Shown in pieces: positions 9,220 through 14,747 of a DNA stretch of 33,918 nucleotides; the stretch's first letter is position 1; each line of letters opens with the position of its first letter. The notes below the pieces were generated by a model that was not told the DNA's origin, searched no databases, and was given only the letters and a program-made list of their open reading frames with translations. The stretch spans positions 1-33,918 of the forward strand of contig PXDF01000088.1 in NCBI GenBank assembly GCA_003566455.1. Direction: 5' to 3'. The position numbers and the translations under genes are program-made. The DNA is from Desulfonatronovibrio sp. (GTDB lineage Bacteria > Desulfobacterota > Desulfovibrionia > Desulfovibrionales > Desulfonatronovibrionaceae).

Positions 9220-10278
9220 ATGGATCCTTCAGGACTGATCCCTGTTGCCGATTCCATTCCCACCCACTGGGGATGGTTTTATTTTTTCCTGATTCTAACT
9301 TTTATTCTGCACCTGCTGCTCATGAATGTCATGCTGGGCAGTGGAATAATTGCCCTGGCAAGGCACTTCAAGAAAGGCAGTGACCCCTGTCCCATCTGCA
9401 AAGATATCTCCCTCAAACTCCCCTATCAAATAGCCTTTACCATCAATTTCGGAGTTGCCCCTCTGCTGTTCCTGCAGGTCCTTTACGGTCAGTTCATATA
9501 TGTCAGTTCCATAATGATGGGGGTTTACTGGCTGAGTGTCGTGGGCATACTGATAATCATGTATTACAGCGCCTATATCTATGATTTCAAGTATGACCAG
9601 TGGCCAAACCTGCGGCTTTACTTTCTGATCCTAATGGTGGTTCTGGCCCTGGTTATCGCCTTCTTTTTCTCCAACAACATGACCATCATGCTCAACCCGG
9701 AAAAGTGGACCGGCTATTTTGATGATCGTTCAGGCACCATGCTCAATTTAAGCGATCCGACTCTTATTCCAAGATATCTGCATTTTGTGGTGGCTTCCAT
9801 AGCCGTGGGAGGACTGTTCATGGCCATTACCTGGCAGTTCAAACAGGACCCGAAGGCCGCGGCGCATATTGACCAGGGAATGAAGTGGTTTACTTATGCC
9901 ACTCTGGCCCAGATCGGAGTAGGATTATGGTTTCTTATCAGTTTGCCCCAGGAGATAATGCTTCTTTTTATGGGTGGGTCAACTCTGCATACAGTCATTT
10001 TCCTCCTTGGTCTCCTTGGCGTGACAATGATCCTTGTGTTTGGCTTCAAAAAAATGGTCTGGCCGACCACTGCCGGATTAATAATGACCATTACCCTGAT
10101 GGTTCTAATGCGGGATCTGGTCAGAAACGCCTATCTCTCACCCTACTATCACCCTTCAGAACGGACCGTAATGCCGGAGTACGCCCCCCTGTTCATATTT
10201 CTGGCTGTCCTGATCCTGGGCCTGGGAGCGGTTTTCTACATGCTCAAGCTGGCCTTTGAAGCCGGAAAGGAGGCCTAA
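9220..10278 (+). CDS. Membrane subunit of a cytochrome bd-superfamily complex
   Basis: Integral membrane protein, 352 residues, about eight to nine hydrophobic helices. It resembles a divergent CydA-like fold rather than a usual CydB. Seen: His31 in helix 1 (FILHLLLMNVMLG, same place as CydA His19), RYLHFVVASIAVGGLF around His188 (very like the CydA His186 region VHTVASGYVTGA) and RDLVRNAYLSPY near 298-309, recalling the GRQPW segment. Cys57 and Cys60 (CPIC) lie in the first loop. The ATG at 9220 follows GAAAGGGG by seven bases; the TTG start 24 bases upstream has no such site. The stop TAA overlaps the next start region by one gap base only, so the two are coupled. Most likely the second subunit of the complex encoded with the following fusion gene; haem content is inferred. 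Confidence 0.7.
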   Translation: MDPSGLIPVADSIPTHWGWFYFFLILTFILHLLLMNVMLGSGIIALARHFKKGSDPCPICKDISLKLPYQIAFTINFGVAPLLFLQVLYGQFIYVSSIMMGVYWLSVVGILIIMYYSAYIYDFKYDQWPNLRLYFLILMVVLALVIAFFFSNNMTIMLNPEKWTGYFDDRSGTMLNLSDPTLIPRYLHFVVASIAVGGLFMAITWQFKQDPKAAAHIDQGMKWFTYATLAQIGVGLWFLISLPQEIMLLFMGGSTLHTVIFLLGLLGVTMILVFGFKKMVWPTTAGLIMTITLMVLMRDLVRNAYLSPYYHPSERTVMPEYAPLFIFLAVLILGLGAVFYMLKLAFEAGKEA

Positions 10279-12951
10279 ATGAATTATCCGGTATGGGAAC
10301 TGTATACACTTGGCGGCGGGTTCTGGATAGCGGTCATAGCTGTTCTGCATGTATTCGTAGCCCATTTTGCCATTGGCGGTGGCCTGTTCCTGGTTTTGAC
10401 CGAAAAAAAGGGTTACCGGGAAAACTCAAAACAGATTCTTGACTATACAAAAAAACACGCCAAATTCTTCATGCTGCTGACCCTTGTCTTCGGGGCAGTG
10501 ACCGGAGTGGGGATCTGGTTTGCCATATCACTGGTCAGTCCGGCGCCCACTTCCAGGCTCATTCACACCTTTGTCTATTTCTGGGCTATAGAATGGGTCT
10601 TTTTCATGGCCGAGATCGTAGCCATTTTCGTTTATTACTACACCTTCGGCAAAATGCAGCGGGACAAGCACCTCCTTGTGGGCTGGCTCTATTTCATTTT
10701 TGCCTGGCTTTCCCTGTTCATGATCAACGGCATAATCGCTTTCATGCTCTCCCCAGGCGCCTGGCTGGAAACGGGCAATGTCTGGCACGCCTTTTTCAAT
10801 CCCACTTTCTGGCCCGCCCTTTTCTTCAGGACGTTTATTGCTCTTATGCTGGCCGGTCTGTACGGATTTGTTACCTCTTCCTGGATAAAAGACCCGGATT
10901 TCCGGGAAAGGATGATCCGCTACTGCGCCAAATGGCTTATCCTGCCCTTTGCCTTTCTTATCCTCTCCGGTCTCTGGTATCTGTCGGCAGTTCCCGAAGG
11001 CGCCAAGGCCATGATTCTCGGCCGGTCTCCGGAGATAGTACCTTTTTTCAGGGCATTTATCTGGCTTTCCATCATCATCGTCGTGGCCGGTCTGCTGTTT
11101 TCCATTCGCATGCCCGGGTCCATAAAACGCCCCATGGCCTTTGTTCTCCTGTTCATCGGTCTTTTGTACATGGGCAGCTTTGAATGGATGCGCGAAGCAG
11201 GGCGCAGGCCTTATGTCATCTACGAATTCATGTATTCCAATTCAATTCCCGTGGAGATGGAACAGGAAATAAATGAAAAAGGGATTTTAAGTCTAGCCAA
11301 ATGGGTTGAAAACCGTGAACTGACCGATGAAAACATGCTTTCCGCCGGTCGAGAGATTTTCAACCTGCAATGCATAAGCTGTCACAGTCTGGACGGGCCA
11401 TTGAACGATATCCGGCCCATGACCGCCAAGTTCGGAGTTTACGGAATGGATTCCATGCTCAACGGCATGGGCAAACTTTACGATTACATGCCAAGGTTTA
11501 TGGGCACCAGGCAGGAACGCCTGGCCCTGGCCCGTTTTATCGTGGAAGATATCCATGGAAAGGAAGTTACGGAGCATACCCCGGCTGAGGTGCCTGTGCT
11601 TGACTTTGATATTCCGCCTTTTGATCCTGACCAGGATGAATATGTCCTCCTGGCCTGGAATACACTTGGTTTGAAATGCATTACCGACTGCGACGACTAC
11701 TGGTCCCTTCTTCCTCCTGGCAACACCATTTACGCCCAATTGGTGCGCCGTGACTTTCTGCCGGAAATCGTCCTGGATGACGTGGTCATAACCTACCAAG
11801 TGGATGATGGATTTGAGAACCCGGCTGACCATGTGGCCTTCTGGGATAACGCACATTCAATCGTGGGCAGGGAGATCCCGAGAAATGTGGGTCTGGCAGG
11901 GCTGGGCATGCAGGGCGAATTCAAACTCAATGAAAACCTCATGACCTTTGTGGCCGCGGGGATTCCAGTTGTTCCCTATTCCGACGACGGAACCATAAAT
12001 CCCTATCCATTCATTCATGTGGAAGCCAGGGATAAAAACACCGGTCAGGTTTTGGCCAGGACCAAGACCGTGGCCCCGGTGGCCGCTGAAATGGGTTGCA
12101 AAACCTGTCACGGAGGAGAGTGGAGGGTGCAGGGAAGAATGGGCATATCAGCTGAAACCGCCTCGGATGTGCTGAGGCTGCACGACAGGAGAAACAAGAC
12201 AGACCTCATGGCCAGGGCCCAGGCCGGCAATCCCGTGCTCTGCCAGAGCTGCCATCCAGATCCCCTGCTCAATGCGACCGGCGACCCGGAACTTCTGAAC
12301 ATGCCTGCCGCACTGCATGGATTTCACGCCCATTATCTGACCGACCGGCAGGGAGCTGAAGCCTGCAACGCCTGTCATCCCAGCGATCCAGACAGCCTGA
12401 CTGACTGTAAGCGCGGGGTACACGCCACAACCATAAACCTGGACTGCACCAGCTGTCACGGGACCCTGGAAGATCACGCCCTGACCCTGCTCAAGGGAGA
12501 GTATGAAAAGGGCAAGACTCTTCGAGCGGAAAGACTTATGCGCAATATTGAGCCCCGCCTGGTAGTCTCCCTGGAGGATATCAACCCCAGGACCCCTTGG
12601 GATCAGCAGCCCGACTGCCTGACCTGTCATCAGGACTTTGGCCGGCCGGAAAGTCATGAAGTAAGCGCCTTCAACGTCTGGAACGACGATGTGGGCGAAC
12701 TATACCGTCTGCGGTCAGACTTTATGGGGCTTATGTGCCAGTCATGTCACGGTGCAACTCATGCTGAATACCCTTCACTGAACAAATACGGCCGGAACCG
12801 GGATAACGTCCAGCCCATGCAGTACCAGGGAGAGCCCTACGCCATTGGAGCCAACAACAACTGTGCCGTCTGCCATGTCATGGAAATGGATTTCGAGGCC
12901 CATCATGCCGGAATGCTGGATGGGACGAGAAACAGACTCGACTCCTATTGA
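10279..12951 (+). CDS. CydA-like membrane domain fused to octahaem cytochrome c
   Basis: An 890-residue fusion. Residues 1-320 form a membrane domain related to cytochrome bd subunit I: helix 1 His24 (AVLHVFVAHFAIGG), the paired acidic residues Glu105 and Glu112 (AIEWVFFMAE, as CydA E99/E107) and REAGRRPYVIY (about 305-315, as GRQPW). The CydA b558 ligands are not present: Arg184 stands for His186 and Phe260 for Met393, and the quinol Q-loop is missing. Residues 350-425 make a mono-haem c domain (CISCH at 365); 428-600 contain a beta-rich segment starting LLAWNTLGLKC, common in multihaem proteins; 600-890 carry seven more CxxCH sites at 607, 655, 696, 723, 780, 820 and 862. The c-domain must be periplasmic. 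Probable role: O2 reduction or electron exchange using cytochrome c instead of quinol; the substrate is not shown by sequence. Confidence 0.75.
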   Translation: MNYPVWELYTLGGGFWIAVIAVLHVFVAHFAIGGGLFLVLTEKKGYRENSKQILDYTKKHAKFFMLLTLVFGAVTGVGIWFAISLVSPAPTSRLIHTFVYFWAIEWVFFMAEIVAIFVYYYTFGKMQRDKHLLVGWLYFIFAWLSLFMINGIIAFMLSPGAWLETGNVWHAFFNPTFWPALFFRTFIALMLAGLYGFVTSSWIKDPDFRERMIRYCAKWLILPFAFLILSGLWYLSAVPEGAKAMILGRSPEIVPFFRAFIWLSIIIVVAGLLFSIRMPGSIKRPMAFVLLFIGLLYMGSFEWMREAGRRPYVIYEFMYSNSIPVEMEQEINEKGILSLAKWVENRELTDENMLSAGREIFNLQCISCHSLDGPLNDIRPMTAKFGVYGMDSMLNGMGKLYDYMPRFMGTRQERLALARFIVEDIHGKEVTEHTPAEVPVLDFDIPPFDPDQDEYVLLAWNTLGLKCITDCDDYWSLLPPGNTIYAQLVRRDFLPEIVLDDVVITYQVDDGFENPADHVAFWDNAHSIVGREIPRNVGLAGLGMQGEFKLNENLMTFVAAGIPVVPYSDDGTINPYPFIHVEARDKNTGQVLARTKTVAPVAAEMGCKTCHGGEWRVQGRMGISAETASDVLRLHDRRNKTDLMARAQAGNPVLCQSCHPDPLLNATGDPELLNMPAALHGFHAHYLTDRQGAEACNACHPSDPDSLTDCKRGVHATTINLDCTSCHGTLEDHALTLLKGEYEKGKTLRAERLMRNIEPRLVVSLEDINPRTPWDQQPDCLTCHQDFGRPESHEVSAFNVWNDDVGELYRLRSDFMGLMCQSCHGATHAEYPSLNKYGRNRDNVQPMQYQGEPYAIGANNNCAVCHVMEMDFEAHHAGMLDGTRNRLDSY

Positions 12952-12966
12952 GATTGATTAAATAAA

Positions 12967-13003
12967 CCACAAAAAAGGCGCCTTGAAGGCGCCTTTTTTG
13001 TGG
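12967..13003. terminator. Strong bidirectional Rho-independent terminator
   Basis: A nearly perfect hairpin: CCACAAAAAAGGCGCCTT pairs with AAGGCGCCTTTTTTGTGG around a single G (effective loop TTGAA). The A6/T6 inside the stem gives a U-tract in both directions. It lies 15 bases after the fusion gene and before the end of the convergent pgpA. Confidence 0.9.
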
Positions 13004-14240: not shown

Positions 14241-14747
14241 CTACTCTGAGTCAGGTGAAAATATTCTTTTTCCAAATTCCTGATTCAGCATGAACAGTCC
14301 ACCGCTCTGGTTGCCGGTCATTTTGACCTTCTGCAGAACTTCATTGGCGCTGGCTTCCTCTTCCACCTGCTCTGAAACAAACCACTGCAGAAAGTTGTTG
14401 GTGGCGTGATCTTTCAGTTCAATGGCCAGGTCCACCAGGTCATTGATCATACCAGTGACTTTCTGTTCATGGCTCAGGACATTTTCAAACACCTCAGCGG
14501 GCGAACCCCATAATTTGGGTGGGGCGTCTATGCCTTCCAGCAGAGGTCTGCCGCCCCTTTCATTGACATAATCGTAGATTTTCATGGCGTGGGACAGTTC
14601 CTCCTGGGCCTGGAGACGCATCCAGTGGGCGAATCCATTAAGGTTAATCTCGCTGAAATAGGCGGACATGGACAGATAAAGATAGGAAGAATAAAGTTCT
14701 GCGTTGACCTGTTTGTTCAGACTTTTCTCCATTTTTTCACTGAGCAT
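14241..14747 (-). CDS. ftnA: Bacterial non-haem ferritin
   Basis: Iron-storage protein forming a 24-subunit shell. 168 residues, typical of FtnA. The ferroxidase centre is intact: Glu17, Glu50, His53, Glu94, Gln127 and Glu130 fall at the same numbers as in E. coli FtnA, with Tyr24 also conserved; no haem-binding methionine typical of bacterioferritin is apparent. A strong ribosome site (AAGGAGA, seven to eight bases before ATG) decides the start. It is followed 85 bases later by maf but probably has its own promoter in the 234-base gap to its right. In an anaerobe it limits Fenton chemistry and stores iron for Fe-S and haem proteins. Confidence 0.95.

Follow-up and report, generated by a model that had tools for sequence, protein, structure and literature searches.

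A candidate cytochrome c-fed bd-superfamily oxygen reductase with an eight-haem subunit in Desulfonatronovibrio

To our knowledge, every cytochrome bd oxidase studied so far draws its electrons from quinol. In the canonical subunit CydA the residues His19, Glu99, Glu107 and Glu445 belong to the active site, and a ninth helix follows the motif that contains Glu445. Members of the OR-C family carry a c-type haem on subunit I and have no quinol site; the families of the superfamily, OR-C included, were reportedly defined by Murali, Gennis and Hemp in 2021. Three families are distinguished in the bd superfamily, namely qOR, OR-C and OR-N (PMC13189123, PMC10839748), and the OR-N type CydAA' of Nitrospinota and Nitrospirota is thought both to pair two CydA-like subunits and to use cytochrome c (PMC10839748). 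The known O2 sinks of sulfate reducers are flavodiiron proteins and bd oxidases (PMC11451228), and bd oxidases sustain sulfide-resistant respiration (PMC4815019).

The window analysed here (the whole stretch of 33,918 nucleotides, contig PXDF01000088.1) comes from a genome whose nearest named relatives are Desulfonatronovibrio metagenome-assembled genomes (MAGs). It contains two adjacent genes, B and A, with the following features.

9220..10278, + strand: subunit B, 352 residues, nine transmembrane helices, a divergent CydA paralogue
10279..12951, + strand: subunit A, 890 residues, a bd-superfamily membrane domain, a mono-haem c domain and a seven-haem region
10279..11220, + strand: membrane domain of A (residues 1–314), eight transmembrane helices, assigned from Pfam, the alignment with canonical CydA, the tree and the fold search
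11293..11562, + strand: mono-haem c domain of A (about residues 339–428), CISCH at residue 365 and invariant Met404
11593..12948, + strand: C-terminal region of A (residues 439–890), a beta-rich haem-free stretch (about 455–600) followed by seven CXXCH motifs

A is presumably labelled in databases as an ordinary oxidase subunit. The initial annotation, made from the sequence alone, had read it as a fusion of a CydA-like membrane part with a mono-haem domain and a seven-haem region, and the open reading frame, the Pfam matches and the conserved motifs all bear this out. A search against Pfam gave a match with Cyt_bd_oxida_I (PF01654) over residues 17–230 (E = 5e-12, above the curated cut-off), a match with Cytochrome_C7 near the C-terminus (residues 777–866, E = 7.9e-10) and a match with Cytochrome_CBB3 over residues 354–421 that falls below the cut-off (E = 1e-4); the mono-haem domain also matches cytochrome c6. 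The eight CXXCH motifs of A lie at residues 365, 607, 655, 696, 723, 780, 820 and 862, and all of them are conserved in position among relatives of 43–84% identity. Since the motifs are found at the same sites down to 43% identity, they are not chance occurrences. Met404 and the CXXCH motif of the mono-haem domain are invariant, in the short relatives as well, which fits a predicted His/Met ligation of this haem. In the tail, the seven histidines of the CXXCH motifs and seven further histidines (197, 242, 245, 277, 295, 390 and 437/438 when counted along the first row of the tail alignment) are invariant or nearly so among 12 diverse sequences. The presence of seven additional conserved histidines fits a set of seven bis-His haems, a pattern that would be expected of a wire rather than of a multihaem enzyme with catalytic activity.

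When 61 superfamily sequences were aligned, the A residues His24, Glu105, Glu112, His131, Glu306 and Arg309 fell in the columns of canonical CydA residues. Among these, His24, Glu105 and Glu112 share columns with His19, Glu99 and Glu107 of Escherichia coli CydA, as the initial annotation had proposed, and Glu306, in the sequence REAGRRPY, corresponds to Glu445 (GRQPW motif). The latter correspondence, like the presence of a partner directly upstream of A, had gone unremarked in that annotation. All A-type rows apart from one distant outlier (L083) have the canonical CydA residue at His24, Glu105, Glu112 and Glu306. By alignment, A retains the residues that would hold the haems of the CydA active site (His24 and Glu306) together with both active-site glutamates (Glu105 and Glu112). 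The columns of the CydA Q-loop are gaps in all A-type sequences shown, in agreement with the earlier reading that the loop is absent. The position of the b558 histidine (CydA His186) is taken by Phe183, with Arg184 adjoining it, and that of the b558 methionine (CydA Met393) falls near Ile266, in a stretch that aligns poorly and where the placement is unreliable. The loss of the b558 ligands that had been claimed is upheld, but the positions that had been given for it, Arg184 and Phe260, are not.

A fold search using Foldseek with the predicted structure of A (pLDDT 72 overall, weak in the tail) returned CydA chains as all of the best matches (E = 5.5e-7), and both this search and the tree place the membrane domain inside the CydA superfamily. 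The model contains eight membrane helices, the last of which ends at about residue 307, just past Glu306. With eight helices compared with the nine of CydA, the chain exits the membrane just past Glu306 and runs into the c domains. Taken with the known topology of CydA, the helix count of the model suggests that this exit would lie beside the active site on the periplasmic side, the side on which c-type haems are attached.

The open reading frame of B as mechanically called starts at TTG 9196; the conserved start is ATG 9220, which is preceded by GAAAGGGG and begins a sequence MDPxxLIP that is conserved among relatives. The TAA codon of B directly abuts the ATG codon of A, and the ribosome site for A, AAAGGAGG, lies within the last codons of B. 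No Pfam family matched B, CydB (PF02322) included, and its identification as an ordinary CydB was rejected on these grounds. A comparison of the B and A profiles using hhalign gave a probability of 96.3 and an E-value of 1.8e-9 over 226 columns, and B was a weak match (E = 2.2e-5) when the genome was searched with the A profile. The AlphaFold model of B (pLDDT 86, pTM 0.85) has nine long helices, and its fold matches subunits I and II of cytochrome bd, the best TM-score being 0.71 with a CydB-type chain (9r2g_D), at Foldseek E-values that are modest (1.5e-3 and above). Wherever the flanks of relatives can be read, B almost always adjoins A, preceding it in the eight-haem type and following it in the other types. 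His188 of B lies in the column of the canonical b558 histidine and His31 in that of His19. Across the B sequences of the clade, His31 is always present and His188 is absent from a single one, of an Aminicenantes genome; the only sequences that lack His31 are two far relatives (L061 and L175) that fall outside the clade. These conserved histidines suggest that B may hold a low-spin haem. The two far relatives (L175, 2692–3681, − strand; L061, 2061–3089, − strand) are divergent CydA/B-like proteins of 330 residues, each located beside a small protein with two transmembrane helices.

Canonical CydAB (PDB entries 6rko and 5doq) shares with B-A the fold, the equivalents of His19, Glu99, Glu107 and Glu445 and the two-subunit build. 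A differs from it in having no Q-loop, no b558 ligands, eight rather than nine helices and a c-haem tail, whereas B resembles CydB in fold but has no Pfam CydB match and is recognizably related to A in sequence. The OR-N type CydAA' resembles B-A in being bd-like, in pairing CydA-like subunits and in its probable use of cytochrome c as donor. The 620-residue branch (L165–L176 and L084), which is taken as OR-N-like, differs from A in having lost the equivalent of Glu105 (CydA Glu99) and mostly that of Glu306 (CydA Glu445), and small separate c-type proteins with one or two haems are encoded alongside. With OR-C, A has in common the superfamily core, both active-site haem ligands, the absence of a quinol site and a c haem on subunit I; the latter two are the defining features of OR-C. 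The two differ in that the single c domain of A is followed by a seven-haem module of about 450 residues. Since A departs from the quinol oxidases in three respects, namely the Q-loop, the b558 ligands and the CydB partner, B-A is described here as an enzyme that, judged from its sequence, matches the described character of OR-C and may be termed OR-C-like with a new tail. A literature search, with most subscription journals outside its range, found no description of the eight-haem fusion.

The membrane domain was found in 77 of the 395 Desulfobacterota genomes sampled. Some members come from lineages that have relatives in culture, under the record names Solidesulfovibrio magneticus and Desulfovibrio sp. 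DV. The long, eight-haem form was found in 18 of the 395, with nine family codes, and also in independent MAGs, and a frameshift or chimera was rejected as the origin of A on this basis. Other relatives have either a single c domain or between two and four c domains of the mono-haem kind. L013 and L014 are MAG contigs in which a frame change interrupts the A gene, owing either to an assembly error or to decay. The tree resolves three starred groups, canonical CydA, the 620-residue group and the A type, and the program cautions that the first two of these join by long branches; the A type forms a c-haem-carrying clade apart from canonical CydA. Within it, the eight-haem forms constitute a single clade (94/99) which includes a tail-less A of 445 residues and one haem, accompanied by B (L065, 8358–9695, + strand). 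As a starred branch nests this sequence among the eight-haem forms, the seven-haem tail has been lost there.

The tail has free-standing counterparts in the widespread 'LGMHC...LPPYNTLxAQV' multihaem cytochromes, which share the same 440-residue module, usually with seven haems, but are exported or lipoprotein-like and have no membrane oxidase domain. In those listed as L119–L134 the 'LGMHC...LPPYNTLxAQV' domain precedes five to seven haems; this haem-free stretch corresponds to no Pfam family. In a separate and quicker tree of the tail module, a single starred clade holds all of the fused tails and, nested among them, two free copies. One of these copies (L115, 8064–9851, − strand) consists of a signal-like N-terminus followed by the mono-haem c domain and the seven-haem module, the membrane part having been lost; its genome also encodes the full fusion. 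More distant free copies are common in Desulfobacterota, and none was found in the host genome. From the single starred clade of fused tails and the abundance of distant free copies, a secreted multihaem cytochrome became joined, most likely a single time, to a bd-type subunit that carried c haem; the tail was lost again at least once.

The initial annotation had regarded A as part of a redox enzyme that exchanges electrons with periplasmic cytochrome c, and the domain matches, motifs, alignment and fold support this. Its wording left open whether the enzyme draws on cytochrome c or delivers to it, and the gene neighbours of the relatives favour the former, that is, O2 reduction. Two loci from different groups (L007 and L066) have a common gene order of cydA, cydB, a trihaem class III cytochrome c, a flavoprotein, a flavodiiron protein with ODP and flavodoxin domains, a HEAT-repeat-like protein, B and A. 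In L067 cydAB and an Rrf2-type regulator lie beside B-A, and the B gene of L020 shares 4 bases with an overlapping gene of flavodiiron type. Beside the L057–L059 type there is repeatedly a gene for a di-haem cytochrome c peroxidase, and upstream of the L062 type one for a peroxiredoxin. Canonical cydAB adjoins only three of about 25 long-form loci, which is well above the roughly 0.5% of genomes in which a given gene is expected by chance to lie within 9 kb of cydA, although this estimate is rough and the loci are not all independent or equally long. The many spurious opposite-strand reading frames that the neighbour clustering gave in high-GC loci were disregarded. In the window itself the B-A operon contains no O2-related genes and the pair stands alone. 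Together, the O2-defence neighbours of the relatives and the enrichment of cydAB favour O2 reduction, and we consider it likely that B-A is a heterodimeric bd-superfamily O2 reductase of strict anaerobes that is fed by periplasmic cytochrome c and not by quinol.

An alternative is an outward flow of electrons through B-A, in which B or A would oxidize menaquinol and the haem chain would pass the electrons to periplasmic or extracellular acceptors, as in the CbcL-type quinol dehydrogenases of metal reducers. We regard this as unlikely given that the Q-loop quinol site is absent from A, that A still has all of its O2-site residues and that the recurring neighbours of the relatives are O2-defence genes, even though the tail belongs to a family of cytochromes secreted in many genomes of the phylum and a b558-type histidine is kept in B. 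A further alternative is that B-A is a detoxifying enzyme whose di-haem site reduces a different small oxidant, for instance nitric oxide or peroxide. The occurrence of canonical cydAB at three independent loci points instead to O2, and the key residues of A are those of the O2 site; a different oxidant therefore also appears improbable, despite the cytochrome c peroxidase and peroxiredoxin genes that adjoin relatives and the ability of the flavodiiron proteins found beside them to reduce NO as well as O2 (PMC11451228). That the membrane part of A is a non-catalytic anchor or redox sensor for the tail is very improbable, for although the 620-residue sister group demonstrates that loss of the Glu105 and mostly of the Glu306 equivalents can occur and soluble copies of the c domain with seven haems exist (L115), the active-site residues of A are strictly conserved and an anchor would not explain why L065 keeps the membrane part and B without the tail.

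If B-A is the cytochrome c-fed O2 reductase proposed above, the seven bis-His haems of the tail would be loaded by periplasmic cytochromes of low potential, for example c3 that had received electrons from hydrogenases or formate dehydrogenases. The next carrier would be the His/Met mono-haem c domain, lying over the active site as the point of entry in place of b558, and it would pass the electrons on to the di-haem site for the reduction of O2 to water. B, a CydA paralogue with a histidine at the b558 position, would take the place of CydB, possibly with a low-spin haem of its own. The tail may serve both as a wire and as an electron store for the four-electron reaction. The probable role would be the removal of O2 in a sulfide-rich anaerobe. 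The existence of a natural tail-less form (L065) and of lineages with cultured relatives makes the role of the tail testable.

The host is a sulfate-reducing bacterium. Its genome (96.5% complete) has dsrA above the cut-off and five matches to class III cytochrome c, and encodes a single canonical CydA and a single flavodiiron protein. No COX1 match, and hence no haem-copper oxidase, was found in it, so that B-A would be the sole cytochrome c-dependent oxidase there. Because bd oxidases are sulfide-resistant, a bd-type cytochrome c oxidase would be useful to a sulfide producer. A more specific proposal, which we put forward only tentatively and think rather doubtful, is that B-A is a sulfide-tolerant cytochrome c3 oxidase which reduces O2 directly at the expense of the periplasmic c3 pool, without recourse to quinones, the eight haems acting as wire and store and the low-spin b haem having moved from A to B. 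More generally, a bd-type enzyme fed by cytochrome c and equipped with a multihaem tail would allow strict anaerobes to remove O2 with electrons from the oxidation of periplasmic H2 or formate by way of a sulfide-tolerant class of enzyme.

In another locus (L077, 8010–12438) a three-haem A and B are followed by an octahaem cytochrome with a PF11783 (Cytochrome_cB) domain, possibly in one operon. Promoter and terminator scans returned about as many sites as shuffled sequences. A strong hairpin of 17 pairs with flanking T and A runs is located at 12967–13003, between A and a convergent pgpA-like gene, and is likely to be a two-way terminator. A ferritin gene (PF00210, E = 3.8e-49) lies 1.3 kb downstream of A at 14241–14747 on the − strand, in a block that is syntenic in L002.
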